A DNA stretch of 58,325 bases from Bacteroidota bacterium (GTDB taxonomy: Bacteria; Bacteroidota; Bacteroidia; 2-12-FULL-35-15), in NCBI GenBank assembly GCA_947479085.1, contig CANJYB010000026.1:1-58325 (forward strand), in the 5' to 3' direction. The position numbers were made by a program, and so were the translations under genes. The notes below the pieces were generated by a model. It was not told the origin of the DNA. It did no database searches and worked only from the letters and a program-made list of their open reading frames with translations. Below, piece by piece: positions 9,434-58,325 of this stretch; the first letter of the stretch is position 1, and each line of letters opens with the position of its first letter.

Positions 9434-11752
9434 ATGGAAGAATCTCTGCAAACCAATTTAGAACCCACTGAATTTGTTTCGAAATTCATTGGTCAGACAA
9501 ATAAAAACATTTTCCTTACCGGAAAAGCCGGTACAGGAAAAACCACATTATTGCATCAAATTGTCAGCAATACCTATAAGAAATGTATTGTAGCAGCCCC
9601 AACAGGAATAGCGGCAATTAATGCAAAAGGAGTTACTCTTCATTCCCTTTTTCAACTGCCCTTTGGCAGTTTTATTCCTGAAATTCAAATCTCCAAATCT
9701 TACAGAGAGAATTCAAGAGTAAGCGACCCTACTTCCCTTATCAAAAATTTACAAATGTTTGATGCAAAGAGGAAGCTTTTGCGAGAATTGGAATTACTCA
9801 TTATAGACGAGGTTAGTATGCTTAGGGCGGATTTGCTGGATGCCATAGATCTTATTTTGCGGCATGTCAGGAGAAAGAATCACATTCCGTTTGGAGGGGT
9901 ACAGATTTTATTTATCGGAGATTTACTGCAACTGCCTCCTGTAATTAAAGATGATGAATGGGATCAGTTAAAACCTTTTTATAAGAGTATTTATTTTTTT
10001 GATTCCAGAGTATTGCAACAGAACAAACCTGTTTACATAGAACTTGATAAAATATACCGCCAGGCGGATGAAAAGTTTATTACTCTATTGGCTCACCTTA
10101 GAGACAATATTCTCATGAAAGAGGATTTTAACTTATTGAATACTTATTTTAAACCCGACTTTAAATCAACACCGGAAGATAATTACATTACACTAACTAC
10201 ACATAACTATAAAGCAACAGAACTGAATAAAAATTTTCTGGAACGATTACCTGAGAAATCTTATTTCTTTGAAGCAAAAATTGAAGGAGATTTTTATGAC
10301 AATTCATATCCTTTAGAAAAAACACTGGAGTTGAAAAAGGGTTCGCAAATAATGTTTGTTAAAAACGACCCAAGCGGACAACAACGTTTTTTTAATGGCA
10401 GAATTGGGGTAGTTTCAGCATTAACAAACGAATCAATAGAGGTAACTTTTAACGATACGAAAAATAAAATTATAGTTGAACCGTACAAATGGGAGAATAT
10501 TAAATATAAAGTTAACGGGACTAACAACGAAATAGAAGAAAGTGTTAGTGGCACATTTACACATTATCCTATAAAATTAGCCTGGGCAATTACAGTTCAC
10601 AAAAGCCAGGGTCTTACTTTCGATAAGGCGATTATTGATATTGGAAGTGCTTTTGCCCCGGGACAGGTTTATGTAGCTTTATCACGTTTGCGTTCACTTT
10701 CAGGACTGGTGCTTACTTCGCAGATAAATACCAACAGCATTAGCAGTGACGAAAAAATTGCTGATTATTCTAAAAAACAAACTGAGGAACAAAATCTACC
10801 TGAAATACTAAATGACGAAACCCATCATTATCTTAAGAGTTTTATTTTAAAATGTTTTGATTTCTCTTTATTGATGAGAGAAGTGCAGGAACATGCTGAT
10901 AGTTACCGAAAAACGGATGAATCAAAATCCATTAAGCAAAAACATCATAACTGGGCAAAAGAATTAGAAAAGCAAATAAGTGAAATAAAACCAATAGCTG
11001 AAAAATTTAAGAATCAGGTGGCTCAGATATTAGAGGGCAAACAGGAAGGGTATCTTGACTTTCTTAATAAAAGAGTGCAGTCAGCTTCGGAATATTTTTT
11101 ACCGGCTTTTAAGAATTTTACAAAACAAATTTTTAAGCATATAGAAGAAATTAAAGGAGAAAAGAAAATAAAAACCTATTTGCAGGAATTACTTGAACTC
11201 GAAATTTTATTTTTCGAACAGCAGAAACTAATCAACAAATCAGTTTTTGTAATCGAAGTAACTCTTTTTAATAAAGAATACACCGGAGCAGATGTAAAAA
11301 AATTATATTCCGACATAGTAAGAGATGAGCAATTAAGACAGGTAAATTCAATGCCTTTGTCAACAGGAAAAGAAGGCCAAACAGAAACAATTACAAAAGA
11401 GAAAAAACCACGAGTAAGAAAACCAAAAGGTGCGCCTAAAGAAAAGATTGACACCAAACTTGAAACATTTAAGCTATATAAAGAAGGGAAAAACGTTCTC
11501 CAGATTTCTCAGGAAAGAAAAATGACACCTGGCACTATTGAAGGACACTTAGCCCATTATGTTACAAAAGGAGAATTAAAAGGAAGTGATTTTATATCAA
11601 ACGAAAAAGCTGAAAAAATTATAGCTACCGCTAAAAAACTAAATACTCTCTTTTTCGGTCAGATAAAACAATCATTGGGAGATGAGTTTACTTATAGTGA
11701 AATAAAATTTGCAATAGCTTCCTACCTTTCTACCGACCCGGAAAATAAATAA
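9434..11752 (+). CDS. Pif1/RecD-like superfamily 1 helicase with C-terminal HTH
   Basis: ATP-dependent DNA helicase of 772 residues. Walker A is GKAGTGKT at residues 30-37; Walker B is LLIIDEVSML near 117-126; a glutamine motif III (LFIGDLLQLPPV) follows; and the UvrD_C_2-type C-terminal helicase segment reads LAWAITVHKSQGLTFDKA, then VYVALSRLRSLSGL. The last 100 residues contain a RecQ-type helix-turn-helix (ETFKLYKEGKNVLQISQERK), probably for DNA binding. The family acts in replication-fork and recombination intermediates. It is translationally close to the DUF1456 gene. The exact biological role in Bacteroidota is not settled. Confidence 0.88.
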   Translation: MEESLQTNLEPTEFVSKFIGQTNKNIFLTGKAGTGKTTLLHQIVSNTYKKCIVAAPTGIAAINAKGVTLHSLFQLPFGSFIPEIQISKSYRENSRVSDPTSLIKNLQMFDAKRKLLRELELLIIDEVSMLRADLLDAIDLILRHVRRKNHIPFGGVQILFIGDLLQLPPVIKDDEWDQLKPFYKSIYFFDSRVLQQNKPVYIELDKIYRQADEKFITLLAHLRDNILMKEDFNLLNTYFKPDFKSTPEDNYITLTTHNYKATELNKNFLERLPEKSYFFEAKIEGDFYDNSYPLEKTLELKKGSQIMFVKNDPSGQQRFFNGRIGVVSALTNESIEVTFNDTKNKIIVEPYKWENIKYKVNGTNNEIEESVSGTFTHYPIKLAWAITVHKSQGLTFDKAIIDIGSAFAPGQVYVALSRLRSLSGLVLTSQINTNSISSDEKIADYSKKQTEEQNLPEILNDETHHYLKSFILKCFDFSLLMREVQEHADSYRKTDESKSIKQKHHNWAKELEKQISEIKPIAEKFKNQVAQILEGKQEGYLDFLNKRVQSASEYFLPAFKNFTKQIFKHIEEIKGEKKIKTYLQELLELEILFFEQQKLINKSVFVIEVTLFNKEYTGADVKKLYSDIVRDEQLRQVNSMPLSTGKEGQTETITKEKKPRVRKPKGAPKEKIDTKLETFKLYKEGKNVLQISQERKMTPGTIEGHLAHYVTKGELKGSDFISNEKAEKIIATAKKLNTLFFGQIKQSLGDEFTYSEIKFAIASYLSTDPENK

Positions 11753-11777: not shown

Positions 11778-12215
11778 TTAATCGGTTAATCCTTTAATAG
11801 GAATAGGGAAAATAAAATTCTCAAAAAAACTTCTGGCTGATTTTTTCACATGGTTAGTATATCCGTCCAAACTTTGGTGTAATGATTTGGCAAATTCCTT
11901 ATTCAATTTTGCAATCACCAAATTGGTAAGTCCAATTTCTTTTTTCAATTCCTCTCGTTTAGCATCGTCAAATGGTGAATACTTTTTAACTACTGCCTCA
12001 AAGTTCATTTTGAAATTAGTTTCTACTTCCATATAATAAGGTAATAAAAGAGGATTAGAAGTAAAGGTTTTCAGGTGTGCCATTTTGATTGCGTCCGCTT
12101 TTTGTTCATTATTTATTCCAAACGAACCGCTGGAAGCAAGAACAGAAAGTAATGCAGGCGCTTTTAATAAGAGTTGCTGATCTTTGCTACTTAATTTTTT
12201 GAACTCTTTTATCAT
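11778..12215 (-). CDS. Hypothetical all-alpha protein
   Basis: A 145-residue soluble protein predicted almost wholly helical, starting MIKEFKKLSSKDQQLLLKAP. No signal peptide, transmembrane segment or catalytic motif is seen. It is convergent with the helicase gene, with 25 bp between stop codons, and has a TACTTTTG promoter element 40 bp upstream, so it is likely expressed alone. I do not recognise the family. Confidence 0.65.
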   Translation of the reverse strand: MIKEFKKLSSKDQQLLLKAPALLSVLASSGSFGINNEQKADAIKMAHLKTFTSNPLLLPYYMEVETNFKMNFEAVVKKYSPFDDAKREELKKEIGLTNLVIAKLNKEFAKSLHQSLDGYTNHVKKSARSFFENFIFPIPIKGLTD

Positions 12216-13292: not shown

Positions 13293-16200
13293 ATGAAAAA
13301 ACTCCTACTATTCTTTTCCGTTCTATGTCTTCAGAACATTTTATTTGCTCAAGTAGCAAATGATGATTATGCGCTGAAACTACAGGCAAAATTGGCAGGT
13401 CTTCATCCGCCATCCACTCGAGCCGTTTTGCGCAGCGACCCTGAACAGGATTGTAACAGTGCCATTCCTGTGTGTCAATATACCTATTCACAAAATGTTT
13501 CATATTCGGGCGAAGGTAATACTCAGGAAATTCCAGGTAATACCTGTTTAGCTTCTAATGAATTAAATTCAGTATGGTATATTTTTACAGTTCAGGCAAG
13601 TGGTTCCGAAAACTTTCAGATAACGCCCAACAACAGTAGCGATGATTATGATTTTGCTTTATACAATATTACAGGGCAAAATTGTTCGGGAATAGCTAGT
13701 GGTGCTATTACTCCAATAAGATGTAATTATTCAGCAACCTCAGGCAACACTGGATTAAGCGCAAGCGGAACAAATGCTTCGGAGCCTGCTAGTGGTAGTA
13801 ATCAATCAACAACTTTGGCTGTTACAACAGGGCAAACGTATGTATTGATAGTAAGTAATTATAGTTCTACGCAAAATGGTTATACCTTAAACTTTCAGCA
13901 AGGAGCAGGTGCAGCAAATATTTTTGACAATGTACCTCCTACTCCAGCATCGGTTATTGCTCCATGTGGGTCATCAACCATAACATTGGTTACTTCCGAG
14001 CCTGTTCTTTGTTCAACCATTAGTCCTTCGGGAAGTGAATATACTATCACCGGAACAGGTGGTCCTTACACTATTTCCTCATCATCGGGAATAAACTGTG
14101 GAAATTCAACGCTGCAAATAAATATCAACATCTCTCCAGCACTTTCTGGTACAGGTCCATGGACATTGAATATAGCCAGCGGGTCGGATGGAGATGTACT
14201 AATTGATAATTGTGGAAATCAAATGGTACCGACTTCTATTGTATTTCCTACTTCACCTTCGGTGGCAGCCATTACCGGACCGGGAGTAGTATGCTCTGGA
14301 ACAACAGTGGCATTAACTGCATCCAATGGTTCGTCATGGGCGTGGACGGGACCTGCGGGATTTACCGCAACTACACAAACAATAAGTATCGCACCCACTG
14401 CTTCTGGAACATACAATTGCAATATTACTTTTGGTACCTGCGGAAGTTCTTCTGCATCGTATAATGTAACGGTTAAAGCAAGTCCTACGGCAAGTTTTAC
14501 CATCAACCCAAACCCTGTATGTGTGGGCGTTCCGGTTACCTTTACCAATACTTCGGTAATGGCACAAACCTGTATGTTATTAGGTTTGCCGCAAGGTACG
14601 CCTTGCCCTTGCGGATTTCTGCAAACATGTGGAACACCTTCTAATCAAGGTTTATTTGTAAACTATTTATGGACTTTTGGAGATGGAGGCACATCTTTTT
14701 ATTTGCTAGGTATAGGAGCATTTAGTCCAACTCATACATATACAGCTCCTGGAACTTATACGGTAACATTAACAATTACTGACAATTTTTCGGGATGCAC
14801 TGCTTCAACTGCGCAAACCATTACTGTACTTGCTAATTCAGGACCGCTTACTATTACTCCTGCTACAGTAACCATTTGTCCGGGGCAAAGCACTAACCTT
14901 ACTGCAAGTGGAGGCTCCAGCTATACATGGACTTCCAACCCTGTCGGATTTAATGGTATAGGAGCAACGGTGTCTGTTTCACCATTGGTTACAACCACCT
15001 ATAATGTAACATCACCGGGCTGTTCGGGAGCATTAAACGCATCTGCAGTAGTTACCGTGAGCGGTGCAGCTATTGCCACATCCATAATAACAGGGGTTAC
15101 ACCTGTATGTCCAAATCAGGCAGGAGTTGTTTATTCTGTTGTAAATACGGTTGGTTCCACTTATAACTGGACCGTTCCGGTTGGGGCAGTAATTACTGCA
15201 GGACAAGGGACAAATTCAATAACTGTTACTTTTGGAGCAACGGCAGGAACTGTTTCGGTTACCGAATCTAATTCATGCGGATCAGGAACTCCGATTAATT
15301 TTGCAGTCGCTTTGGGTGCACCTCCTGTAACCTCAGCTATAACGGGTTCTACACCTGTTTGTCCGAATGCAGTTGGAATTGTTTATTCTGTTACTAATAC
15401 TACCGGCTCTAATTATAACTGGACCGTTCCTGTTGGGGCAGTAATTACAGCAGGACAAGGGACAAATTCAATAACTGTTACTTTTGGAGCAACCGCAGGA
15501 ACTGTTTCGGTTACCGAATCTAATTCATGCGGATCAGGAGCTCCTGTAAATTTTGCTGTAGCAATAAGTGCAATACCTGTAACATCAGCTATAACGGGTT
15601 CTACACCTGTATGTCCGAATGCAGTTGGAATTGTTTATTCTGTTACTAATACTACCGGCTCTACTTATAACTGGACTGTTCCGGCAGGAGCAGTAATTAC
15701 AGCAGGACAAGGAACAAATTCAATCACAGTTACTTTTGGTGCAACTGGCGGAAATATATCTGTTACGGAAACTAGCACTTGTGGTGTCGGTGCTCCTATA
15801 AATTTTGCGGTAGCTATTAGTTCAATACCTGTAACATCAGCAATAACAGGAACTATACCTGTTTGCCCCAATGCAGTTGGAATTATTTATTCTGTTACAA
15901 ATACTGCTGGCTCTACCTACAACTGGACTGTTCCCGCTGGTGCAGTAATTACAGCAGGACAAGGAACAAATTCAATCACAGTTACTTTTGGTGCAACTGG
16001 CGGAAATATATCTGTTACTGAAACCAGCACTTGTGGTGTCGGTGCTCCTGTAAATTTTGCGGTTACTATTAGTTCAATACCTGTAACATCAGCAATAACA
16101 GGCACTACTCCCGTGTGCGCGAATGCTACAGGAATAGTTTACTCCGTAACTAATACTGCCGGCTCTACCTATAACTGGACTGTTCCTGCAGGTGCAAGTA

Positions 16201-18557
16201 TTACAGCGGGACAAGGAACAAATTCAATTACTGTTACTTTTGGAGCAACAGTAGGAAATATATCTGTTACTGAAACCAGCACTTGTGGTGTGGGTGCTCC
16301 CGTAAATTTTGCTGTTGCAATAAGTGCAATCCCTGTAACATCAGCAATTACCGGCACTACACCTGTTTGTCCGAATGCAGTTGGAATAGTATATTCGGTA
16401 ACTAATACCGCTGGTTCAACCTATAACTGGACTGTTCCGGCAGGCGCAACTATTACATCAGGACAAGGAACAAATTCAATTACTGTGGATTTCGGAGCAA
16501 CCGGAGGAACTATTGATGTAACTGAAACAAGTACGTGCGGAGCGGGTGTGCCAGTTAATTTTGCAGTAGCAGTAGGTGCAATACCTTTAACATCAGCCAT
16601 AACTGGTACTACCCCTGTTTGTCCGAATGCAGTTGGAATTATTTATTCGGTAACAAATACTGCGGGCTCTACTTATAATTGGACTGTTCCGGCAGGTGCT
16701 TTTATTACCGCAGGGCAAGGAACAAATTCGATAACAGTTACTTTTGGAGCAACAGGTGGAACCATAGATGTAACAGAAACAAGCACTTGCGGTATAGGTA
16801 CACCGGTAAGTTTAGCAGTTGTTACAAGTAACATTCCTATAACATCAGCAATAACAGGTACCACACCCGTTTGTCCAAATGCAGTTGGAGTCATATATTC
16901 TGTAACAAATACTGCTGGCTCTACCTATAATTGGAACGTTCCAGCTGGAGCGGTAATTACAGCAGGTCAAGGAACAAATTCGATAACTGTTACTTTTGGT
17001 GCAACGGGAGGGAACATTGATGTTACAGAAACAAGTACATGTGGCGTTGGTGTTCCTGTTAATTTTGCTGTAGTCGTTAACACAACACCTGTAACATCAG
17101 CAATAACAGGCACTACTCCACTTTGTCCGAATGCTGTTGGAATAATTTATTCAGTAACCAATACCATTGGTTCCACTTACAATTGGACTGTCCCGACTGG
17201 TGCAGTAATTACAGCAGGTCAAGGAACTAATGCTATTACTGTAACATTTGGAACAACACCAGGAAATGTGAGCGTAACTGAAACCAGTGCATGTGGAGTA
17301 GGAACTCCTGTTAATTTTGCAGTAACGTTTAATGTACTTCCTTCAACATCAGCAATAATAGGCACTACACCTATTTGTCCTAATAGTATAGGACTTGTTT
17401 ATTCAGTAACAACAACTGCCGGCTCCTCTTACAATTGGTCAGTACCGGCTGGAGCAATTATTACAGCCGGTCAAGGAACCAATTCTATTACGGTTACTTT
17501 TGGTGCTACAGCAGGAACAATTACTGTTACAGAAACAAATGCTTGTGGAGCAGGAACTCCCATAACATTTACAGTCGCCTTAATTCCGCCTTTGGTTGTA
17601 ACTGTAAATCCTCCATCATCTACTTTATGTTCGGGCTCAAGTGTTTCGCTTACAGCAATTGGTGCAACCACCTATAATTGGCTTCCGAATGCAGGATTAA
17701 ATACTTCCATTGGTGCTACAGTTGTTTCTACACCAATATCCACTATTACTTACACTGTAACAGGGGCTGTTGGTCTTTGTTATTCCACAGCTACAGTAAC
17801 TGTAACCATTATTCCAACACCTGTTGCCAGTGGCGGCTTAGACCAATCATTTTGTTTAGGACAATCAGCACAATTGAATGCTTCAGGAGGTACAAGTTAT
17901 TCGTGGCAGCCAACAATAGGATTAGATAATCCATTAATACCTAACCCCATTGCATCACCAATTGCTACAACTACATATACTGTTACAGTGACGAATGGAG
18001 GAATATGTACTGCAACTGACAATGTATTGGTAACAGTATTTCCTTTGCCAAGTGCAAGCGCAGGAGCAGATGCCACCATTTTAATAAATGAATCAACAGT
18101 ACTTTATGGTACAGGATCCGGAACTTTATTGTGGGGCGAGTCCGGATTTAATAATACATTAAGTTGCAACACCTGCTCTAACCCAATAGCAACACCTACA
18201 GACAATGCTTATTATTTTTTAACGGTAACAGATGCTAACGGATGTACCGATTCAGATACTGTTTTTATCAACGTAAATACCGATTTTGGTTTATATATTC
18301 CTAACGCTTTTACCCCGTCAGAAGGAACAACGAACCTTGTTTTTGCTGCAAAAGGATTTGGAATTAAAACTTTGGAAATGACAATATATAATCGCTGGGG
18401 AGAAAAACTATTTGAAACCACAGAACTTGACAAAGGTTGGGATGGAACTCTAAATGGTAATCCTGTTGAATCAGGAGTATATGTCTATTCGATAACAGCT
18501 AAGCCATTTAAAGGAGATGTAATTAAACGGATAGGGCACGTAACATTGATTGAATAA
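13293..18557 (+). CDS. Giant secreted repeat protein with type B T9SS sorting domain
   Basis: A 1754-residue protein exported by Sec and then the type IX system to the cell surface or medium. It has a signal peptide (MKKLLLFFSVLCLQNILFAQ), an N-terminal beta domain (about residues 48-210) typical of large Bacteroidota surface proteins, Ig-like and PKD-like modules (YLWTFGDGG near 450), ten tandem 84-residue modules (about 600-1435, each with PVCPN, YNWTVPAGA and GQGTNSITVTFG), and two more Ig-like modules. The last 85 residues are a gliding-motility-associated C-terminal domain (IPNAFTPS, IYNRWGEKLFE, GWDGTLNGNPVESGVYVY), which marks type B T9SS cargo. Likely an adhesin or matrix protein; ligand unknown. 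Confidence 0.9.
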   Translation: MKKLLLFFSVLCLQNILFAQVANDDYALKLQAKLAGLHPPSTRAVLRSDPEQDCNSAIPVCQYTYSQNVSYSGEGNTQEIPGNTCLASNELNSVWYIFTVQASGSENFQITPNNSSDDYDFALYNITGQNCSGIASGAITPIRCNYSATSGNTGLSASGTNASEPASGSNQSTTLAVTTGQTYVLIVSNYSSTQNGYTLNFQQGAGAANIFDNVPPTPASVIAPCGSSTITLVTSEPVLCSTISPSGSEYTITGTGGPYTISSSSGINCGNSTLQININISPALSGTGPWTLNIASGSDGDVLIDNCGNQMVPTSIVFPTSPSVAAITGPGVVCSGTTVALTASNGSSWAWTGPAGFTATTQTISIAPTASGTYNCNITFGTCGSSSASYNVTVKASPTASFTINPNPVCVGVPVTFTNTSVMAQTCMLLGLPQGTPCPCGFLQTCGTPSNQGLFVNYLWTFGDGGTSFYLLGIGAFSPTHTYTAPGTYTVTLTITDNFSGCTASTAQTITVLANSGPLTITPATVTICPGQSTNLTASGGSSYTWTSNPVGFNGIGATVSVSPLVTTTYNVTSPGCSGALNASAVVTVSGAAIATSIITGVTPVCPNQAGVVYSVVNTVGSTYNWTVPVGAVITAGQGTNSITVTFGATAGTVSVTESNSCGSGTPINFAVALGAPPVTSAITGSTPVCPNAVGIVYSVTNTTGSNYNWTVPVGAVITAGQGTNSITVTFGATAGTVSVTESNSCGSGAPVNFAVAISAIPVTSAITGSTPVCPNAVGIVYSVTNTTGSTYNWTVPAGAVITAGQGTNSITVTFGATGGNISVTETSTCGVGAPINFAVAISSIPVTSAITGTIPVCPNAVGIIYSVTNTAGSTYNWTVPAGAVITAGQGTNSITVTFGATGGNISVTETSTCGVGAPVNFAVTISSIPVTSAITGTTPVCANATGIVYSVTNTAGSTYNWTVPAGASITAGQGTNSITVTFGATVGNISVTETSTCGVGAPVNFAVAISAIPVTSAITGTTPVCPNAVGIVYSVTNTAGSTYNWTVPAGATITSGQGTNSITVDFGATGGTIDVTETSTCGAGVPVNFAVAVGAIPLTSAITGTTPVCPNAVGIIYSVTNTAGSTYNWTVPAGAFITAGQGTNSITVTFGATGGTIDVTETSTCGIGTPVSLAVVTSNIPITSAITGTTPVCPNAVGVIYSVTNTAGSTYNWNVPAGAVITAGQGTNSITVTFGATGGNIDVTETSTCGVGVPVNFAVVVNTTPVTSAITGTTPLCPNAVGIIYSVTNTIGSTYNWTVPTGAVITAGQGTNAITVTFGTTPGNVSVTETSACGVGTPVNFAVTFNVLPSTSAIIGTTPICPNSIGLVYSVTTTAGSSYNWSVPAGAIITAGQGTNSITVTFGATAGTITVTETNACGAGTPITFTVALIPPLVVTVNPPSSTLCSGSSVSLTAIGATTYNWLPNAGLNTSIGATVVSTPISTITYTVTGAVGLCYSTATVTVTIIPTPVASGGLDQSFCLGQSAQLNASGGTSYSWQPTIGLDNPLIPNPIASPIATTTYTVTVTNGGICTATDNVLVTVFPLPSASAGADATILINESTVLYGTGSGTLLWGESGFNNTLSCNTCSNPIATPTDNAYYFLTVTDANGCTDSDTVFINVNTDFGLYIPNAFTPSEGTTNLVFAAKGFGIKTLEMTIYNRWGEKLFETTELDKGWDGTLNGNPVESGVYVYSITAKPFKGDVIKRIGHVTLIE
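15085..17604 (+). repeat. Ten tandem 252-bp coding repeats
   Basis: The motif CCTGTxTGTCC recurs every 252 bp from 15102 to 17370, marking ten in-frame 84-codon units inside the giant secreted protein. Neighbouring units share long identical nucleotide runs (for instance around 15700 and 15950), while others differ mainly at synonymous sites. This points to ongoing unequal exchange or gene conversion and a copy number likely to vary between strains. Confidence 0.9.
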
Positions 18558-23591: not shown

Positions 23592-23906
23592 CTGTGAGCT
23601 TTTTTACCAAACCTTACAACTTTTTCGCCAAAGTTTGAAAACAATTGGCGAAAGTTGTATAACAATTGAAGAAAGTTTGACAACAATTGGCGAAAGTTGT
23701 AAAACAATTGAAGAAAGTTTGACAACAATTGACAAAAGTTGTAAAACAATTGAAGAAAGTTGTTAATCTTTTGGCCAAAGTTTGACAACTTTCGTCAAAA
23801 AGTTGTAAGGTTTCGTGAAAAAGTATCAAACTTTGGCGAAAAAGTATGAAACTTTAGAAAAGGAGCTTCAACTTTTGCACCATAAGGTCGACAATTTGAC
23901 GCAAAA
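23592..23906. repeat. 21-bp repeat array with CAATTG cores, alternating unit classes
   Basis: Fifteen 21-bp units fill 315 bp exactly, with no indel although the outer units differ greatly from the central ones. Six central units share ACAATTG, and they alternate between a TTTGA..CAACAATTG class and a TTGTAAAACAATTG class, giving a 42-bp period; nearly all units end in AAAG or AAAAA. The left end is inverted: TTTCGCCAA (23622-23630) pairs perfectly with TTGGCGAAA (23645-23653). On the right, ACAACTTT (23785-23792) pairs with AAAGTTGT (23799-23806). It lies between the convergent rlmD and ilvE genes. Confidence 0.9.
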
Positions 23907-49963: not shown

Positions 49964-50302
49964 ATGGAAGAGGAACAAACTTTTGAATACTACCTTGAAC
50001 AAGCAAAAAAGCTGATGGAACAAGGTTATGATGCAGTTTCCATTGAAAACCAGTTGAAACAAAAAGGGATGGATGCTTCTGCTCTTCCTGAAATTTTGAA
50101 ACAATTAAAACTCCTTCGCAACCGAAAACGAACGAAGACAGGCAGTCAACTTGCTTTAGCGGGAGTGTTATTGCTGGGAGCTGGTTTTATTAGTTGCATT
50201 GTCATTCACATCAACGGTGGTGATATTGGGTTTTCGCTTTATGGCATCACCGCAGTTGGCGCTGTGGTATTGATTGCAGGACTGGTATTTATTTTTAACT
50301 GA
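49964..50302 (+). CDS. Small membrane protein with soluble helical head
   Basis: About 112 residues from ATG 49964 (MEEEQTFEYYLEQAKKLMEQ); the longer frame from 49790 adds 58 residues of promoter-region translation and is rejected. A helical head resembling a UBA or DUF-type three-helix bundle (GYDAVSIENQLKQKGMDASA) is followed by two transmembrane helices (LALAGVLLLGAGFISCIVIHI; LYGITAVGAVVLIAGLVFIF). A TACTTTAG near-match to the -7 consensus lies 20 bp upstream. Function unknown. It is convergent with the T9SS protein gene, with 10 bp between stops. Confidence 0.65.
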   Translation: MEEEQTFEYYLEQAKKLMEQGYDAVSIENQLKQKGMDASALPEILKQLKLLRNRKRTKTGSQLALAGVLLLGAGFISCIVIHINGGDIGFSLYGITAVGAVVLIAGLVFIFN

Positions 50303-50312
50303 TTATTCCTTT

Positions 50313-51311
50313 CTATTCTACAATGAGCTTCTTGGTTTCAATAGCTTTGGCTGTTTGTATATTCAAAAAGTATATTCCTTTTTTTAATCCTCTTACATCG
50401 AGTTCTTCTGAATAAAATCCTGGAGACATTGTTTCCTCATTAGTTGAATACACCACTTCACCCAGAGAATTTAGTATAGCAATTTTAACCGGAGTATTGT
50501 TTGATAAGGAATACGTCAATGTTGAAAATTCACCAGAGGGGTTCGGGAATAGATTGCTAAAATCAGTTCCTGCATTCAAATCATTAATCCCCAAACTTGC
50601 TTCATTTAAATAACTGCAAAAATTATAAGTAAGCGATGAAGCTGTGGCAGAGCCCATATACAAAACAGCCTGATGAACACCCGGCAAATACCATTGATAA
50701 ATAGTTTCAGTTATTGTGTCCGTTGACGCTGATGTGGTTTCGTAAAAAGTTAAAACCATTTTTACTCTCAAAACATTATTCAAAGTTCCGTATGGCAACT
50801 GCAAATCTTCGTATCCATCGGCTAACGAAACAAGGGTACCACTTTCCGTTCCGGGACTTGTTCCTGTGATGGTTGCATAGAAGTTTTCAGTGTATCCGGT
50901 ATTAAAAGCATACGGATATTTACTGATTTTAAAAGGATTGGTATAAATAGTGGTACCAGTAGTATTTTGAGTTCCCAGTATTACTAATGAATCAGAAGAA
51001 GCTTTAAAAAAATCGTAAGTGGAAGAGGAAACAGGGTGAATGGAAAACGAAGCGGAAGGAAAAGTGGCTGCATACGGAGTGGCAGAAACAGCAATAACTT
51101 CTGAGGTATCTATAATTCCAGAAAAGAGACTTGAAAAATTCCAATTGATGTTTGCACCTGCGCTTCCCTCCGAACCAGGATATATAGAAGATACCGTATA
51201 AAACATATCACCAACTACAGGATTAATAGTTGCCCCTGTTAATACCGGTTGAGAATAAGACAAACCGCAAAACAACAGTTGAATAAAAGCTAAAGAGTAT
51301 TTCGATTTCAT
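50313..51311 (-). CDS. Secreted protein with type A T9SS sorting domain
   Basis: About 332 residues from ATG 51311, which begins a signal peptide (MKSKYSLAFIQLLFCGLSYS); the longer frame from 51359 would put 16 extra residues in front. The body is beta-rich, with Ser/Thr repeats. The final 80 residues are a type A T9SS C-terminal domain: LFPNPSGEF, VKIAILNSLGEVVYST, LDVRGLKKGIYFLNIQT and ending KKLIVE. It should be exported across the outer membrane by the type IX system and have this domain removed. Mature function unknown. Confidence 0.85.
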   Translation of the reverse strand: MKSKYSLAFIQLLFCGLSYSQPVLTGATINPVVGDMFYTVSSIYPGSEGSAGANINWNFSSLFSGIIDTSEVIAVSATPYAATFPSASFSIHPVSSSTYDFFKASSDSLVILGTQNTTGTTIYTNPFKISKYPYAFNTGYTENFYATITGTSPGTESGTLVSLADGYEDLQLPYGTLNNVLRVKMVLTFYETTSASTDTITETIYQWYLPGVHQAVLYMGSATASSLTYNFCSYLNEASLGINDLNAGTDFSNLFPNPSGEFSTLTYSLSNNTPVKIAILNSLGEVVYSTNEETMSPGFYSEELDVRGLKKGIYFLNIQTAKAIETKKLIVE

Positions 51312-51431
51312 ATTTTTTAATTTTATTTTATAACATAATTCAACCTGGTAAGAGAACACTGTTAATTAATTGCTGGTAAAGGTAATATTCCTTTTATGTA
51401 CAGAAAATGATTTTAATCATTGACCATTAGA

Positions 51432-52535
51432 CTAAAACACCCTCACTGCTCTTACAAAATAGGCATTGTATTTATTGTAATAATCATACGAATCACCGGA
51501 ATGAAAATCGAAAATCCAGGCATACTCATCGCGGTTGATGGTGGAACTCCAATAGTTCTTAGCAGCAAAATCTTTTATTCCTTTCTTTTTATAGAGTAAA
51601 TCATATATCATGGAAAGTTCCTCTTTTGTAGGCAGTCGCCAATCTTTAAAGCCACCGGCATTATATGCTTCGCATTCATTTTTTGCGTCTGCCATTATAG
51701 ACTTGCCTACATCGGCAAGCGAACATATAAGACCATGGTCGCCATTACCAACTGTATAAACAATTACTCCTCCTGCAAATAATTCGCCTGTGCGTTCTTC
51801 ATTAATCTTGTCCGAATTGTCTTCTTCCCAAGGTCTGTTAAGTGTTTTTATTCTTATTTCAAGGTCGTTGATAAGGGTATTTATCAGGAGTTTTTCAGAA
51901 TCGTATTTTGTTTCTTCTTCCTTTATACGGTTTATCTCCCGCTCCTCGTCTGTAATGTTTTCTTTAATTTTTTCAATCTGCTTTTGCTTTTCTTCAATTT
52001 CCCGTTCTATTAAAAAAATATCGTTCTCCCTCTCTCCTATTCTTCTTTTCACTTCTTTTATTTCATCTGCTTTCTGCCTTTTGCCACTTTCTTTTTTCAG
52101 CAATTCAGCTTTGTGTTTTTCTATTTCTTTCAGCAGCTTTTCTTCTTCCTGCTTTTTCCAGGTCTCGTCTTCCCTGCGTTTTATTTCTCTTTCTTCGGCT
52201 GCTTTCTGCTCTGCTGTTTTGTATTTGGTTTTTATTTCGTGCTCTTTCTTTTTCAGTTCTTCCCCAAATCGTTTTACTACTTCCTGCTGCTCCTTATTGC
52301 TTTTAGTAGTTACAACTATTCGCGTGGTTTTAAATTTAAAATCGTAATCGGCTCGTTTTTCATTATTACTCAGTATTTCGTAAGCTTCCTGGATGGTTTT
52401 AAATCGTTCTTCGTATAATTTATCTCCCTGATTTTTGTCCGGGTGAAAGCGGACTGCCAGCTTGCGGTAAGCAGCTTTTATTTCCATATCGGTGGCTGAG
52501 TTTTCGATACCGAGTGTAAAATAATAGTCTTTCAT
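51432..52535 (-). CDS. DnaJ-domain protein fused to coiled coil and DUF1566 domain
   Basis: A 367-residue cytosolic-looking protein. Residues 1-66 are a J domain with the HPD motif ([10 protein letters not shown]) that activates DnaK ATPase. Residues 85-235 are a highly charged coiled coil. The last 115 residues are a DUF1566/Lcl-type domain, related to C-type lectin-like and formylglycine-enzyme folds ([46 protein letters not shown]). No signal peptide is present, although Lcl domains are usually exported. The combination suggests a DnaK co-chaperone that recruits partners through the lectin-like domain, which is inference. Confidence 0.88.
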
Positions 52536-52575
52536 TTTGTTCTATGGTGAAGTAATGTTTGTTTTATTACTTTGG

Positions 52576-52583
52576 CAAATGTA
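52576..52583 (-). promoter_or_regulatory. TAnnTTTG promoter element of the DnaJ fusion
   Basis: Minus-strand TACATTTG lies 41 bp upstream of ATG 52535. Confidence 0.5.
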
Positions 52584-52667
52584 TCTAATTAAGGGGGGTA
52601 GTTTTTTTGAAGACAATTCAGGTAATCAACAATGATAAGTTAATAAACCAAAGGATATTGATGGGAA

Positions 52668-52960
52668 TTTTTACCGCGAAGGCGCAAAGCCGGAAAGTTT
52701 TTTTAAGAGAAAAGAAATTTTTCCGCAAAGGCGCAGAGGCGCAAAGATTTTTAAAGAGAAATTAAAATGGTACGCAGATGACGTGGATTGGGAAGGATTA
52801 AAAATGATTATTGGAGTTATGATAAATACGTTTGCAAGACATCACCCCTGAATGGCTCCGGATTTTCAACCCCTGCCGCTCTTCTTAAATACCGAATAAC
52901 TTGGTAAAGAGTTCAGAGAGGGTTGAAGGAATGTGACGGTTGGAGTAATGTTATTCATAT
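52668..52960. repeat. Dispersed intergenic repeat, copy 1
   Basis: The stretch contains GCAAAGGCGCAGAGGCGCAAAG, split here as GCAAAGGCGCAGA and GGCGCAAAG, then AATGGTACGCAGATGA, GGGAAGGATTAAAAATGAT, CACCCCTGAATGGCTC, GGATTTTCAACCC, and GTGACGGTTGGAGTAATG. The same blocks recur in the same order at 54661-55060. No reading frame is conserved through them. The two copies flank the broken tail-fibre-like gene. Confidence 0.75.
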
Positions 52961-53074
52961 CACGCTGATTGGAAATTTAAACACAGTGGCAGGTAAGAAT
53001 TTCATTAAGATGATTACCATATAAGTTGATTTAACTAATTCTATTCCTGCCATTTCTTATTCATATTATTCTCT

Positions 53075-53082
53075 TATATTTG
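53075..53082 (+). promoter_or_regulatory. TAnnTTTG promoter element of tail-fibre-like gene
   Basis: TATATTTG lies 52 bp upstream of ATG 53135. Confidence 0.5.
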
Positions 53083-53134
53083 CCCTACGGAATGCCAAGT
53101 TTATGTTTTTATACACAAATTTATTTTTATTTTC

Positions 53135-54658
53135 ATGAAATTAAAAACACTATCCACCTCACTTTTTACCTGTTTGTTAATTGTAGGCATCAGTTCATTT
53201 TCCTTTTCGCAAAATGTGGCCATTAATGGTTCGGGTGCTTTGCCCGCTGCATCCTCCATGCTTGATATTTCTTCCACATCAGAAGGACTGCTTATTCCGC
53301 GAATGACCACTGCACAGAAAACAGCAATAGCTGCACCTGCTACCGGTTTATTAATTTATCAAACAGATGGATTGTCCGGATTCTGGTATTATACCGGAGC
53401 TATATGGATACGCTTAGGCAATGGTGATGGCACTGTTACCTCGGTGGCTACCACTGCTCCATTATCAGGTGGAACTATTACTACCAGCGGTACGTTAAGT
53501 ATTTCGCAGGCCAGTACTTCCACTGATGGCTACTTATCTTCTACCGACTGGAATACTTTTAATAACAAACCGGGAGGAAGCGGTACTGCCACACGGGTAG
53601 CTTTCTGGTCGGCTGCCACCACTCTTTCGAGCAATGCGGCATTGTACTGGGACAATACCACTTCTGCACTTGGCGTGGGAACTTCTGCTCCAGGATTTCG
53701 ATTGGATGTACTTTCTGCGGCCCGGGCAATAAACGGCAACTGTACGGTGGGAACTGCTGCTGGTGTTTTTGGGTTTAACACTGCTGCTGCAGGTGCAGGT
53801 GCAGGTGGGTAAGGTATTGCAGGACAGACTAACCAAAGCTCAAGCCAGGCAGTAAGAGGAGAACAAATAAATGGAGGAGGCTATGCTGCTGCATGTATTA
53901 ATTTTGCTGGTGCTGCTGCCCTTGGTGGTGGTGGTGTGTACGGGCAAACGAGCCAGAGCAAAGGTTTTGGTGCTGACGGCCGTAATTTTAATACTTCCGG
54001 TACAGGTATTTTTGGTGTAGGGCAAAATGTGGCCGGTAATTATCTTGTTGCAGGAAGTGGTGCGGCTATTAATGGTGTTACCACCGGAATATATGCCAGG
54101 GCGAGCACAGCAGGTGTAGGTCAAGCTATTTATACTGATCAGTTTGGTTCTGTTACGAGGGTAAACTACTGGAGCGGTGCTTTGCAATATAAAATTTTAG
54201 GTACGGGTTCGGTTTCTACGATTGCAAAAAACACGGAAGGAAATAATGTAGTATTGCATTGTACGGAAGCACCTGAAATTTATTTTGAAGATTATGGCGA
54301 AGGGAAATTAGTGAACGGCAAAGCGCATATTAGTATTGACCCTACTATTGCTAAAAATATTTTGGTGAATGATAAACATCCGCTTCGGGTTTATATACAA
54401 CTGGAAGGCGATTGTAAGGGAGTGTTTGTTACTAACAAAACCGGTCAGTCGTTTGATGTGGCTGAACTAGCCGGAGGACAAAGCAATGTGAGCTTTCAAT
54501 ACCATATTGTAGGTAACCGCGCTGATGAAGAATTGCCGGGAGGAAGAATTTCGAGAAATGCAGATGCTCGGTTTGAACCTGCTCCGTTGCCTGCTGAAAC
54601 CAAAACAGCAAACACTATTGATGTTGGTTCGCCAACTGCTTTATCTCCTAAAAGATAA
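53135..54658 (+). pseudogene. Tail-fibre-like surface protein gene with an in-frame stop
   Basis: One 508-codon frame is interrupted by a single TAA at 53810-53812; the reading frame on both sides is continuous (AGAGAGG, stop, GIAGQTNQSSSQAVRGE, and on to VYGQTSQSKGFGADG at 53936). The N-terminus has a signal peptide ending FSFSQ, then the tail-fibre-like segment GTVTSVATTAPLSGGTITT, SGTLSISQASTSTDGYLSS and TDWNTFNNKPGG common in Bacteroidota. The C-terminal part (PEIYFEDYGEGKLVNGKAHI, SIDPTIAKNILVNDKHPLRV) is a conserved domain that often ends such proteins. TAT to TAA would explain the stop. Either a recent pseudogene or a sequence error. Confidence 0.8.
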
Positions 54659-54660
54659 GT

Positions 54661-55060
54661 TTCCATTTTGTTTACCGCAAAGGCGTAGGATAAGGGAAAG
54701 AGAAAGTTTAACCGCAGAGGCGCAGAGGCGCGAAGATATTCTTTTAAGAGAAATGAAAATGGTACGCGGATGATAAAGATGGGAAGGATTAAAAATGATG
54801 ATTGGAGTTATGATAAATTCGTTTGCTTTTTGTGTGGAGACTTGATACCTCCGAATAAATATCACGAGTTGGACAATCGCGATGGAGGAGACGCAGAGAC
54901 GAGAAGTTTTTTTAAAGAAATGAAAATGGTACGCGGATTTACAAGACCTCACCCCCGAATGGCTCGGGATTTTCAACCCGGCCGCTATCCTTGAATCCCG
55001 AATAACTCGGGACATGATTCGGAGAGGGGTGACGCTATGTGACGGTTGGAGTAATGAAAA
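54661..55060. repeat. Dispersed intergenic repeat, copies 2 and 3
   Basis: Two tandem, partly overlapping versions of the 52668 element: ACCGCAGAGGCGCAGAGGCG then AAATGGTACGCGGATGA and GGGAAGGATTAAAAATGAT (54709-54810), and GACGCAGAGACGAGAAG, AAATGGTACGCGGATTT, CACCCCCGAATGGCTC, GGATTTTCAACCC, GTGACGGTTGGAGTAATG (54890-55057). The motif CCGAATAAATATCACG at 54851 also returns as CCGAATAAGTATCACG at 55096. From 55061 to 55598 I see no gene; a 94-codon frame at 55190 lacks any protein-like features. Confidence 0.7.
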
Positions 55061-55598
55061 TTAAAGTTTGCTTTTTTGAGTGGTGGTATGATGCCACCGA
55101 ATAAGTATCACGGGAATTTATGGTTAATAATAAGCGTGGGAATATAAACACGAACAAAGAATAAAACACCATAAACTTGCTTTGAAAAAGTGGCTATTGA
55201 AAAAATAGCAAAAAACGGCAAATCAACACTTTATGAAAAACAACCAAGTTTCCGTGCAGGCAAAAACCCCACTCAAAGTACTATGGTTGTTACAAATGTT
55301 ACCATGAAAATTTTATGCTTGCTCAGGGAAAATAAATTACAGTATAAAAAAACAAAAATTAACCCTCCTAAAATGTCATTTTTATTGGCGAATACCACCT
55401 TGTTTTTCTTCATTTTTATTGCCCGGATTCTTAAAAAAGGGGTGTTTCGGGGGCTGTTTCGGGCGATTTCGTAAAATAAGGGCCAAGAATTAAAAACATA
55501 TCGTTGTTTAGTGTTTTGTTTAATAATTACATTACCAATAATCAGCAGAAGTGAAGCAAACCTGCACCTTCGGGGGACGCTACGCGAACAGGAAATGC

Positions 55599-56081
55599 CA
55601 AAATACCTGCGATTTTATTTGAAGTTCCTGCGGTTTTATTGGAAGTTCCAACGGTTTAATTGGAAGTTCGGTTGGTTTTATTGGAAGTTCCAACGATTTT
55701 ATTGGAAGTTCGGTTGGTTTTATTGGAAGTTCTAACGATTTTATTGGAAGTTCGGATGGTTTTATTGGAAGTTCCAACGATTTTATTGGAAGTTCGGTTG
55801 GTTTTATTGGAAGTTCCAACGGTTTTATTGGAAGTTCCAACGGTTTAATTGGAAGTTCGGGTGGTTTTATTGAAAGTTCCAACGGTTTTATTGGAAGTTC
55901 AGGTGGTTTTATTGGAAGTTCGGGTGGTTTTATTGAAAGTTCCAACGATTTTATTGGAAGTTCGGTTGGTTTTATTGAAAGTTCCAACGATTTTATTGGA
56001 AGTTCGGGTGGTTTTATTGAAAGTTCCAACGGTTTTATTGGAAGTTCAGGTGGTTTTATTGGAAGTTCCAGCGATGTTCTT
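55599..56081. repeat. 23-unit 21-bp repeat array, constant 15-mer plus variable 6-mer
   Basis: Twenty-three 21-bp units follow without any insertion or deletion. Each carries a near-constant 15-mer, TTTTATTGGAAGTTC, and six variable bases. The variable block falls into two classes, CAACGG/CAACGA/TAACGA and GGTTGG/GGGTGG/GGATGG/AGGTGG, that alternate along most of the array, so the effective period is 42 bp. The class I block with its flank (CCAAC) is complementary to class II (GTTGG), so neighbouring units can pair. Class I units also contain the palindrome TTGGAAGTTCCAA. The terminal units are more diverged. No cas-like or other linked gene is seen. Confidence 0.95.
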
Positions 56082-56094
56082 GACCTGTTTTACG

Positions 56095-56275
56095 GGGTTT
56101 TACCCTGTTTTTCTTTGAAAAAGGAGGGTGTGGCAATGCTTTGTGAAATACCTAATGTAGCGGAATGCCAATAAGTTTCGGGTGTTCGGGGGTTTTATCC
56201 TGTTTTTAATTGAAAAAAGTGAGTAAGGACAGGCTTTTCGAGGTAGCTAATGTGGCGGAAGCCAATAAAAAATCG
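56095..56275. repeat. Direct duplication of ~85 bp between the two arrays
   Basis: The blocks GGGGTTTTACCCTGTTTTT, TTGAAAAAGG, ACCTAATGTAGCGGAATGCC, AATAAG (56095-56175) recur as GGGGGTTTTATCCTGTTTTT, TTGAAAAAAG, AGCTAATGTGGCGGAAGCC, AATAAA (56187-56270). The remaining bases to 56497 hold no recognisable gene. Confidence 0.6.
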
Positions 56276-56488
56276 GGATTGGTGAAATATACCAGAGCAG
56301 CGTGGATATTTTTACCACCCCGTATGAAGGACGGGACAGGCATAGGCACATAGAGACATAGAAAAAACACATAGGCAATAAAAACGGCAGGATGCCGGTT
56401 AAATACAAATTAGCGGGAGGCTAAGCTGAACAGGGGAATTTATGCAAATTAATTACTGACTGACAGAAAAACTGCCATAAACACCGGC

Positions 56489-56812
56489 CGAACCAGGGAC
56501 AACTGGTTCGCGATTGATGACAACTGGTTCGCGATTGATGACAACTGGTTCGCGATTGATGACAACTCGTTCGCGATTGATGACAAGTGGTTCGCGATTG
56601 ATGACAACTGGTTCGCGATTGATGACAACTCGTTCGCGATTGATGACAACTTGCTCGCGATTGATGACAACTGGTGCGCGATTGATGACAACTGGTTCGC
56701 GATTGATGACAACTGGTTCGCGATTGATGACAACTGGTTCGCGATTGATGACAAGTGGTTCGCGATTAATGACAACTGGTTCGCGATTGATGACAACTGG
56801 TTCGCGATTGAT
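56489..56812. repeat. 15-unit 21-bp repeat array with upstream anti-repeat
   Basis: Fifteen 21-bp units occupy 56498-56812 exactly. A constant 14-mer GCGATTGATGACAA is followed by a 7-mer that is usually CTGGTTC but also CTCGTTC, GTGGTTC, CTTGCTC or CTGGTGC. Each unit junction carries the palindrome TCGCGA. Directly before the first unit, CGAACCAG (56489-56496) is the exact complement of CTGGTTCG in the units and forms an 8-bp hairpin with the first one. Several frames on both strands are open only because the period is a multiple of three. Confidence 0.95.
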
Positions 56813-57043
56813 GAGCGAGGGTATTTTTGGAGTAAGCGATGATTCCCGAGTGACGGGAAGCAATGATAAACTAAGGGGAACTTGTGTTAAATGGTGGAGC
56901 GATGGTGAAAAACGAGCATTAAATGACACGGGAAGGGTAAAAAGTTAAGAAGGGGGGTTATGGTTTTGGGTTAAGGTAAGAATAGGAGGAATAAAAATGA
57001 AAGGCTAATTCTTTGTATGGAGGTGAGGACACTAACGAATAAC

Positions 57044-57069
57044 GGGCACAGGCGAAACACGCCTGTGCC
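57044..57069. repeat. Hairpin repeat, copy 1
   Basis: GGGCACAGGCG and CGCCTGTGCC form a near-perfect stem around AAACA. It is preceded by GGTGAGGACACTAACGAATA. The same module occurs at 58153. This copy lies just after the XRE gene stop and could act as its terminator. Confidence 0.8.
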
Positions 57070-57082
57070 ATAGGGAGCTTTT

Positions 57083-57391
57083 CTACTCTTCTATTTCTTT
57101 AAATAAAAAATGAGTGTATGAAGGAAACAATTCACTATAATGAACACCGAGCGGCAATGAAAGTAAATAAGTTTCACTAACTCTATAGTCGTCTGTTGGT
57201 TCGCATGCTTCCACTTTAGTAATTAACTGCTCAGATACACCACTTTGTTCTGCCAACTGTTTTATGGTTAAGCCTTTTGCTTCTCTTAATTTCTTTAATA
57301 AATTTCCTGCTATTTCAAAAACCTCTTTTTCTGTGTCCAGTTCTGCATTTTTACCTGCAGGTTGTAGTTCTGATTCCTTCTTTTTTTTCAT
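57083..57391 (-). CDS. XRE-family HTH regulator
   Basis: A 102-residue protein with a Cro/CI-type HTH at about residues 30-65 (LLKKLREAKGLTIKQLAEQS, then GVSEQLITKVEACE), a basic-acidic N-terminal extension, and a short C-terminal tail. It could be an antitoxin or autoregulator of the unknown gene upstream on the same strand; toxin-then-XRE order is common. It also has its own TATATTTG element at 57410-57417. The start ATG is supported by that element. Confidence 0.8.
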   Translation of the reverse strand: MKKKKESELQPAGKNAELDTEKEVFEIAGNLLKKLREAKGLTIKQLAEQSGVSEQLITKVEACEPTDDYRVSETYLLSLPLGVHYSELFPSYTHFLFKEIEE

Positions 57392-57409
57392 CTTATTAAT
57401 CTTTATTTA

Positions 57410-57417
57410 CAAATATA
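57410..57417 (-). promoter_or_regulatory. TAnnTTTG promoter element of XRE gene
   Basis: Minus-strand TATATTTG lies 19 bp upstream of ATG 57391, so the HTH gene can be expressed without its neighbour. Confidence 0.5.
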
Positions 57418-57459
57418 GTGAACTGACTATTCAAAAATTCTCTTTGGGGGAAAGCAATT

Positions 57460-58026
57460 TTATTTCTTTCGGTTAATATTTTTTATCATTCCGGCTGCTG
57501 CCTTTTTTTCTGCTGCACGCATCATGTTCATTACCGAAATTACTTTTCTATATAAAGAGCCTTCCACTTTAAAACCTACCTCAATTGACAAACTATGCAT
57601 GACACTACGGTCGTCCTCACTAATTTCTTTTAAATGATCTATTCTTTCCACAACATCTTTCTTTCCTAAATGCTCTGCCATTTTTAATCTCAATTTCATT
57701 GGATTAATATCCGATTGAATATATGCATCATCATTTAACCAATAATAGACAGATAGTTTGATATTGGTTCCTTCCCTGTCTAACCATACTGAATAAATTT
57801 TACCATAATTGAGTGCTATGTCTTCATGGGAAAACAAGGAAATTTTGACCGGCAAATCGGTGCAATCTATTCCTTTCAAACGCTGAGTTAAATGCTCATG
57901 ACCATCACCTCCATAAAAACCCTTGTCAGGTTTATAAGAATATACTTCAGCCTCCGGTATGCCTTTTAAAATAAACTGCCATTCATTCTCCTCACCTTCC
58001 AGCTTTTTCAGTTCTATTTTTTTCAT
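57460..58026 (-). CDS. Unknown protein paired with XRE regulator
   Basis: A 188-residue soluble protein, mixed alpha/beta with a helical C-terminus (YRKVISVMNMMRAAEKKAAAG). Segments include QFILKGIPEAEVYSYKPDKG and DLPVKISLFSHEDIALNYGK. No nuclease, kinase or other catalytic motif is evident and I do not recognise the family. It is preceded by a TATATTTG element at 58052-58059 and followed 68 bp later by the XRE gene. A toxin-like role is possible from gene order only. Confidence 0.65.
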   Translation of the reverse strand: MKKIELKKLEGEENEWQFILKGIPEAEVYSYKPDKGFYGGDGHEHLTQRLKGIDCTDLPVKISLFSHEDIALNYGKIYSVWLDREGTNIKLSVYYWLNDDAYIQSDINPMKLRLKMAEHLGKKDVVERIDHLKEISEDDRSVMHSLSIEVGFKVEGSLYRKVISVMNMMRAAEKKAAAGMIKNINRKK

Positions 58027-58051
58027 TGGTTATTTCGTGAATTTCTTTCTA

Positions 58052-58059
58052 CAAATATA
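58052..58059 (-). promoter_or_regulatory. TAnnTTTG promoter element
   Basis: Minus-strand TATATTTG lies 26 bp upstream of ATG 58026. It is identical to the element before the XRE gene and may be co-regulated with it. Confidence 0.5.
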
Positions 58060-58152
58060 AATAATTGAATATTCGAAATTGAATTTTGGGAAGGAATTTT
58101 ATTGGAAGGTGGGATAATGTTTTGGTAGGTGGTGAGGACACCACCAAATAAT

Positions 58153-58179
58153 GGGCACAGGCGAAACACGCCTGCGCCC
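58153..58179. repeat. Hairpin repeat, copy 2
   Basis: GGGCACAGGCG and CGCCTGCGCCC repeat the 57044 hairpin with one change, again preceded by GGTGAGGACACCACCAAATA. The two copies are direct repeats about 1.1 kb apart that enclose the XRE two-gene unit. Confidence 0.8.
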
Positions 58180-58283
58180 AATGTCATTAAGTTAAGGAGA
58201 CGAAATTAACATTATAGTTTTAATAAGATACAATGAAGTTGGGTAATTCAAGAGGAAACAAGCCCGAATTTTACAAATAAAAA

Positions 58284-58325
58284 ATGGCAAAAAAAACAAT
58301 ACTCAACTTATTTCAGTATTTAAAA
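58284..58325 (+). CDS. Possible gene start at right edge
   Basis: An ATG at 58284 opens MAKKTILNLFQYLK, still open at the window end. Only 14 codons are visible and no promoter consensus is evident, so this is a weak call. Confidence 0.3.
   Translation, partial: MAKKTILNLFQYLK

Follow-up and report, generated by a model that had tools for sequence, protein, structure and literature searches.

A probable 21-bp intergenic minisatellite with a 42-bp higher-order repeat, one of many arrays of shared period in a few related Bacteroidetes genomes

What kind of sequence is a tandem array whose units share a nearly constant part and end, in almost regular turns, on one or the other of two six-base variants, and what, if anything, keeps it that way? 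The question is posed by positions 55613-56081 (plus strand) of the window, i.e. the whole stretch of 58,325 nucleotides that was analysed, where TRF, a unit table and the alternation of the units delimit an array of TTTTATTGGAAGTTC plus a 6-mer of class A or class B. A preliminary description had counted 23 units; the array is real, but it consists of 22 full 21-bp units (55613-56074) preceded by one degenerate unit (55592-55612, plus strand; GAAATGCCAAAATAC followed by CTGCGA), which the unit table leaves unclear as a copy. The last seven bases of the array span, up to 56081, run into a right-hand module described below. TRF finds the 21-bp period over 55613-56070 (21.8 copies) and gives a higher score to a period of 42 bp over 55610-56082 (11.3 copies). 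The two classes that had been proposed, CAACGR and GGKTGG, exist as classes but not as exact formulae: the 12 class A units comprise nine CAACGR plus TAACGA, CTGCGG and CAGCGA, and GGKTGG fits seven of the 10 class B units (GGTTGG in four, GGGTGG in three, AGGTGG in two and GGATGG in one). Similarly, the constant 15-mer is right in outline but altered in seven units, which carry TTTAATTGG (two units), TTGAAAG (four) or TTTGAAG (one). All array units share one orientation, a comparison that takes in the homologous arrays as well.

The near-strict switching between the classes is fully borne out, occurring at 18 of the 21 junctions (permutation p = 0.0013), with two A-A junctions and one B-B junction as the only exceptions, and unit identity amounts to 0.90 at a lag of two units versus 0.78 at a lag of one. 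A longer run, GGGTGG, CAACGG with the GAAA variant and AGGTGG, is found twice, at 55844-55906 and again at 55991-56053. A two-unit layout of 42 bp is thus real in the window, and it recurs in homologous arrays of the genome that holds the window, G000 (C8 and C12), and of the genomes G015 (G15a, G15b and G15c) and G005 (G5a and G5b): switching is complete in C8 (9/9), G15c (10/10) and G5a (6/6), strong in G15a (14/17) and weaker in C12 (6/8), G15b (6/8) and G5b (3/6). Does such regularity imply selection, as had been claimed? In a growth simulation, an A-B dimer seed was enlarged by copying random blocks and scored for at least 18 switches, which arose with a probability of 0.14 when blocks spanned one to four units, 0.45 when they spanned one to eight, and 0.26 when two-unit blocks were made twice as likely; copying of single units never got that far. 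Since neutral block duplication from an A-B seed reaches the observed alternation with probabilities of 0.14-0.45, selection is not needed to account for it, and this part of the claim falls.

How singular is the array in its surroundings? TRF finds four further 21-bp repeat sets of other sequences in the window: an intergenic array with periods of 21 and 42 bp at 2756-3011, of another family and related to one at C13 of G000 (L031); weak intergenic repeats of a different sequence at 5329-5565, whose score below 100 left them outside the family comparison; an array of yet another family with periods of 21, 42 and 63 bp between convergent genes at 23630-23855; and a homogeneous array at 56498-56814 (GACAACTGGTTCGCGATTGAT; 15 copies, 94%), again of another family. 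The last of these begins 417 bp after the window array. Taking in other sampled sequence, periods that are multiples of 21 bp (21n) characterise 39 of the 45 non-coding tandem repeats in 681 kb from four related genomes, and 15 of the 18 in a second sample of 386 kb (G015, 8/8; G004, 7/10), compared with two of seven in 640 kb sampled from eight further genus members and none of one in outgroups (358 kb). Set aside from these counts were 14 repeats within long open frames of the bearing genomes, six of which also have 21n periods. The 41 arrays of the first sample, one of them from G027, fall into 35 sequence families by blastn. The shared period spans dozens of arrays in ~1.07 Mb sampled from four related genomes, and the window array is one of many such arrays, mostly of unrelated sequence, that occur in a small set of related genomes from a single Bacteroidetes genus. 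Short repeats with a 7-bp period also occur in these genomes (L037, 657-726; L134, oriented 11942-11987).

The densities have to be read with the sampling in mind. G000 holds 25 arrays with a TRF score of at least 100 and a period of 21, 42 or 63 bp in 458 kb, i.e. 5.5 per 100 kb; the corresponding values are 4.0 for G015, 8.0 for G005 (on contigs chosen for their matches), 9.5 for G004, 1.5 for G027 and 0 for two outgroups and the seven further genus members sampled. Sampling was not random: family matches guided the choice of all three G005 stretches and of the C8, C12 and window stretches of G000, and the second G004 sample consists of contigs from earlier hit lists; in the second sample, where criteria differ slightly, the density in G015 is again 4.0 per 100 kb and that in G004 drops from 9.5 to 3.2. 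Once the C8, C12 and window stretches are left out, 19 arrays remain in 360 kb of G000, and extrapolation from this density gives a little more than 200 arrays per genome. As for location, 18 of the 25 G000 arrays lie between tandem genes, three between convergent and one between divergent genes, two at stretch ends and the remaining one inside a low-scoring ORF made largely of repeat.

Is a 42-bp order, then, a general property of these arrays? It is not: an excess of 42-bp order is seen in 19 of the 36 first-sample arrays that are 147 bp or longer and in four of 14 in the second sample, with the reverse sign in none of either, and 63 bp is the best period of eight of the 18 non-coding repeats in the second sample, 63-bp orders being seen at other loci too. 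A universal 42-bp order is therefore rejected, and the alternation in the window is one of several block orders. Taken together, the window array is probably a non-coding intergenic minisatellite with a 21-bp unit and a 42-bp higher-order repeat that arose via block duplication. An early copy of the 21-bp unit would have diverged to give two versions, A, with its palindrome TTGGAAGTTCCAA, and B. Unequal recombination or slippage would then have enlarged the array block by block, frequently by an A-B pair, so that it reads as a 42-bp higher-order repeat. Its support is sample-based and comprises the non-coding and intergenic nature of the array, the 21n excess, the homologous arrays elsewhere, presence or absence at one site, and the lack of A/B co-variation, the last three of which are considered next.

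Among 58 other genomes searched, the array family is matched well in G015 and G005, and weakly, over 33 bp, in G021. One G015 locus (C29) and a locus of the MAG Bacteroidetes bacterium RH-15aug16-189 agree in every base over a stretch of 3149. The C12 array of G000 and the C15 array of G015 are orthologous (81% over 2.3 kb); they align unit by unit and differ in length by one 21-bp unit. The window array itself matches that at C24 of G015 (87% over 478 bp), and a DnaJ-domain gene lies on the same side of both, at ~3.1 kb in the window and ~4.8 kb in G015; as this DnaJ-domain protein is the only one of seven window proteins tried at C24 that found a match, orthology is judged from the sequences to be probable rather than proven. 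(The gene names assigned in the analysis, namely rlmD, ilvE, DnaJ-domain, response regulator and tail-fibre-like, are readings of translations.) The window array has 22 units and its probable orthologue about 10, so that unit number differs between orthologous loci in this pair as well as in the first. Moreover, the 23630-23855 array is absent from the short orthologous gap in G015 and G004, where the matches of the genes flanking it are 90 and 71 bp apart, respectively, compared with ~700 bp here, which means that arrays come or go within the group. Two side observations concern the neighbourhoods of such arrays. In G004 (C52; L134, oriented 11171-11554), a different 21-bp array (TTGTACAAATCGTGTAGTGAC) lies ~6 kb from a DnaJ-domain gene whose neighbourhood carries an array of the window family in the window genome and in G015. 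Furthermore, an interspersed module of ~195 bp (L012, 1147-1339), with homologues in L005, L011 and L010 and most copies near 90% identical, sits some 200-360 bp from several arrays of the window family.

The module to the right of the window array (56082-56280, plus strand; delimited by homology and TRF) has its own 95-bp tandem duplication (56094-56268) and adjoins homologous arrays at C8 and C12 of G000 and in G015 and G005 as well, with 83% mean column identity across seven copies. It contains two terminator-like hairpins followed by T-runs on the plus strand, at 56092-56108 (three GC pairs kept in six of seven aligned copies) and, in the other half of the duplication, at 56187-56202 (three GC pairs kept in five to six of seven). 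Might the array then be transcribed into a non-coding plus-strand RNA that ends at the two hairpins travelling with it? The position of the hairpins directly after the array, their conserved GC pairs and the conservation of the module as a whole all speak for such a transcript, as does a count of eight terminator-like sites in 54600-57500 versus 3.0 (sd 2.1) in shuffles. However, the stems are just 5-7 pairs long, a scan confined to sigma-70-like promoters finds only two where 5.9 are expected, and a double change affects only one of 25 predicted pairs of the module. Rfam yields no match at gathering scores within 50000-58325, which disposes of a known structured RNA in that interval. Judged from these sequence features, the putative transcript appears unlikely.

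If alternation does not demand selection, could pairing between the classes? The preliminary description had regarded A and B as complementary through CCAAC/GTTGG and had envisaged selection for hairpins between neighbouring A and B units. Exact GTTGG occurs in only four of the 10 B units of the window. Pairing was tested on eight homologous arrays (the window, C8 and C12 of G000, three from G015 and two from G005), where the 5-bp stem between an A unit and the next B unit has a mean of 4.4 pairs in the window and 4.0 in G15b and G5a, in keeping with the proposal, but only 3.0 in C12 and G15a, 2.8 in G15c, 2.0 in C8 and 2.0 in G5b (from one unit pair), i.e. at most three of five in five of the eight arrays. 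The two classes do not covary either: on the minus strand, B varies between arrays (CCACCC, TGACCT, CGACCC, TCACCG and others) and A mostly stays CGTTG, so that no compensatory change is seen; this contrast between a persisting A and a drifting B rests on the alternating arrays C8 and G15c, a conservation profile per class being circular because the classes are defined by those very positions. Comparison with shuffled unit orders splits by strand: the real order helps slightly on the minus strand, where three of 150 shuffles equal or beat it, but not on the plus strand, where 133 of 150 fold as well or better. Finally, ten A units alone fold at -59.3 kcal/mol on the minus strand, versus -37.4 kcal/mol for the first ten real units and -4.1 kcal/mol for ten B units, which assigns the minus-strand structure to A units and not to A-B pairs. 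On the homologous arrays and the unit-order shuffles, A/B pairing is unsupported and was rejected, and selection for it is very improbable.

What remains is the folding of the A units themselves. Both strands of the array outfold dinucleotide shuffles (z = -4.5 for plus and -6.3 for minus). Against column-permuted controls, the minus strand stands out in six of the eight homologous arrays, where at most two of 100 controls fold as well, the exceptions being C12 (12/100) and G5a (36/100), and the plus strand in three (C12, 1; G15a, 0; G5b, 0), controls being as good in 7 of 100 cases for the window, 25 for C8, 15 for G15b, 11 for G15c and 59 for G5a. In the minus-strand hairpin, GTTGGAA of the A unit pairs with TTCCAAT of the constant part just before it, leaving a loop of ~6. 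The same inverted repeat, read across the unit centre, constitutes the 13-bp DNA palindrome TTGGAAGTTCCAA (for example at 55638-55650), formed by the standard A unit together with the constant part and absent from standard B units. Six of the eight arrays form more of the palindrome's six possible pairs in their A units than in their B units (A/B: C8, 6.0/4.4; G15a, 5.9/5.1; window, 5.6/4.6; G15b, 5.4/5.0; G15c, 5.2/4.8; G5b, 6.0/4.8); C12 (4.7/4.8) and G5a (3.7/5.0) do not.

Two rival explanations build on this repeat. It is conceivable that a dimeric DNA-binding protein recognises the A-unit palindrome every 42 bp, i.e. every four turns and on the same face of the helix, with B units serving as degenerate spacers. 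Besides the better pairing of A in six arrays and its constancy next to a variable B in the strictly alternating C8 and G15c, this idea draws on an over-representation of inverted repeats among unit consensuses, of which 13 of 39 reach p<0.05 (39 of the 41 arrays were used, short ones being dropped); with one consensus per family, which dropped six arrays, inverted repeats are found in 6, 10 and 7 of 33 for loops of 0-3, 4-9 and 10-15, respectively. Yet the enrichment extends over every loop size and is not found in many arrays, C12 and G5a defy the rule, and the thirty-five families would need as many proteins or a single one that reads shape, all of which makes protein sites a rather doubtful explanation. 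Alternatively, what is kept might be the predicted minus-strand hairpins of the A units, as RNA or single-stranded DNA. Such stem-loops make up most of the minus-strand structure, ten A units fold far better than ten B units, and that strand exceeds its controls in six arrays; against them count the two arrays that do not, the position of both terminator-like hairpins on the opposite strand, and the fact that the same inverted repeat equally gives a DNA palindrome, which would favour neither strand. On the strength of this folding model, hairpins as the selected entity would seem quite improbable. Nevertheless, the excess of minus-strand folding and the persistence of A while B drifts make selection on A units possible, as protein site or as hairpin, and it stands as a live rival to a purely neutral reading.

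Could the array have been brought in by a mobile element or spread by a transposase in the manner of REP/BIME repeats? Array and module together occupy different loci in three genomes, and an 80-bp direct repeat (1801-1880 and 3213-3291) brackets a 1.33 kb insert that carries another array, both of which would suit such an origin. Against it, all units face one way, no strong flanking motif is common to the arrays (the leading k-mers are each present in 3-13 of 40, the G027 array excluded, and some of these belong to the homologous family), and the Y1 transposase family, Y1_Tnp, is matched in 11 of 12 genomes (10 above cut-off) with or without sampled arrays; the match includes the RAYT subfamily without separating it. 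No link to RAYT was seen at this level, matches to the Y1 family not tracking the sampled arrays in these 12 genomes. A viral, plasmid or phage origin was rejected, with 0 viral contigs carrying the exact pattern and no plasmid or phage match at E 1e-5. A mobile-element or transposase-driven origin thus looks distinctly unlikely. With regard to the insert itself, the repeated 80 bp are the last of a response-regulator-like gene (1801-1880) and are 94% identical at 3213-3291; the 1.33 kb between them holds the 2756-3011 array, and the matches flanking this site in G015, G005 and G004 adjoin without the insert. Even less can be said for a coding array, in which 21 nt would represent seven codons of a heptad-repeat protein. 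Long open frames do exist (149 aa on the minus strand), but over 41 arrays their numbers stay close to column-permutation expectation (83 fully open frames versus 78; 37 arrays with at least one versus 34.3), and the same minus-strand frame has TGA in the B units of a homologous G015 array; the coding reading, hardly credible on these counts, was rejected. Elsewhere in the window, 252-bp tandem repeats (15086-17554) lie inside an ORF of 1754 aa that reads like a secreted protein. At 53135-54658, two adjacent ORFs give the impression of one secreted tail-fibre-like protein interrupted between 53812 and 53936.

The minisatellite reading can account for the alternation; what could set the unit at 21 bp? 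The length of the unit in a bacterial minisatellite is usually regarded as a matter of chance, settled when the first duplication occurred. A common 21-bp quantum across sequence-unrelated arrays is the point worth following. Twenty-one base pairs equal two turns of B-DNA at 10.5 bp per turn, and it may be, as a weaker part of the proposal, that this length is kept since only its multiples hold every unit on one face of the helix, in which case the array would act, if at all, as DNA rather than RNA. The reasoning here is purely geometrical and takes 10.5 bp per turn; for two turns instead of three, the exact phase would be the sole explanation offered. Strict phase-keeping is not claimed: with standard TRF scoring, indels number ~124 against 1411 mismatch positions in 49 arrays (~9%), which rejects an indel-free phase, even if the rounded TRF value is 0% indels for 33 of 39 arrays. 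Very permissive gap scoring brings up many other periods, among which 21 and 42 are still the commonest (36 and 33). An origin from 7-mers was rejected likewise, identity at lag 7 having a mean z of -0.25 in 40 arrays and exceeding 2 in one of them, and no excess curvature was detected in 37 arrays with a wedge model (mean rank 0.475). Out of the 41 arrays, short ones had been dropped to leave these 40 and 37, and the 36 of the test for 42-bp order.

It can be suggested, tentatively and as a view with the odds clearly against it, that intergenic arrays in a few related Bacteroidetes genomes are built and maintained in exact 21-bp steps by a process independent of sequence, be it a protein machine that measures two turns or selection for helix phase, with ~200 phased arrays per genome by extrapolation. 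Were the 21n excess genome-wide, it would point to a physical or enzymatic two-turn ruler acting on intergenic DNA, which could be sought by comparing array-bearing with array-poor species of the genus. A literature search found no account of intergenic arrays quantised at 21 bp, which counts as weak evidence.

How do these arrays compare with known systems? Bacterial intergenic minisatellites, or VNTR loci, consist of head-to-tail units of tens of bp with variable copy number, and the present arrays resemble them in having head-to-tail intergenic units (about 10-100 bp) whose number differs between orthologous loci; the difference is that most sampled non-coding arrays share a 21n unit length although their sequences are mostly unrelated. 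The likeness to a repeat-spacer array suggested in the preliminary description does not hold, since its 'spacers' are two recurring 6-bp variants, whereas CRISPR-like arrays have unique spacers of ~20 bp or more. Plasmid centromeres of the sopC type and iterons also consist of tandem units phased on the helix, ~20 or 43 bp long and in some cases with a dyad; each, however, is a single functional locus with a known protein, as opposed to many arrays of unrelated sequence. TAACTGA heptamers, too, occur as numerous sets of intergenic direct repeats within single genomes, some of them of Bacteroidetes, but they have a fixed 7-bp sequence and, in one Beggiatoaceae genome, are mostly located immediately before start codons (MacGregor 2015; PMC4679880), whereas here the sequence is free, the period is fixed and no 7-bp substructure was seen. 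REP/BIME elements share the intergenic arrays of short palindrome-bearing units; successive BIME units, however, point in opposite directions and are associated with RAYT transposases (BMC Genomics 2010;11:44; PMC2817692), unlike the present arrays, in which all units have one orientation and a RAYT tie was not seen. It is the shared 21-bp quantum that, on this comparison, would set arrays of the window type apart from ordinary bacterial minisatellites.
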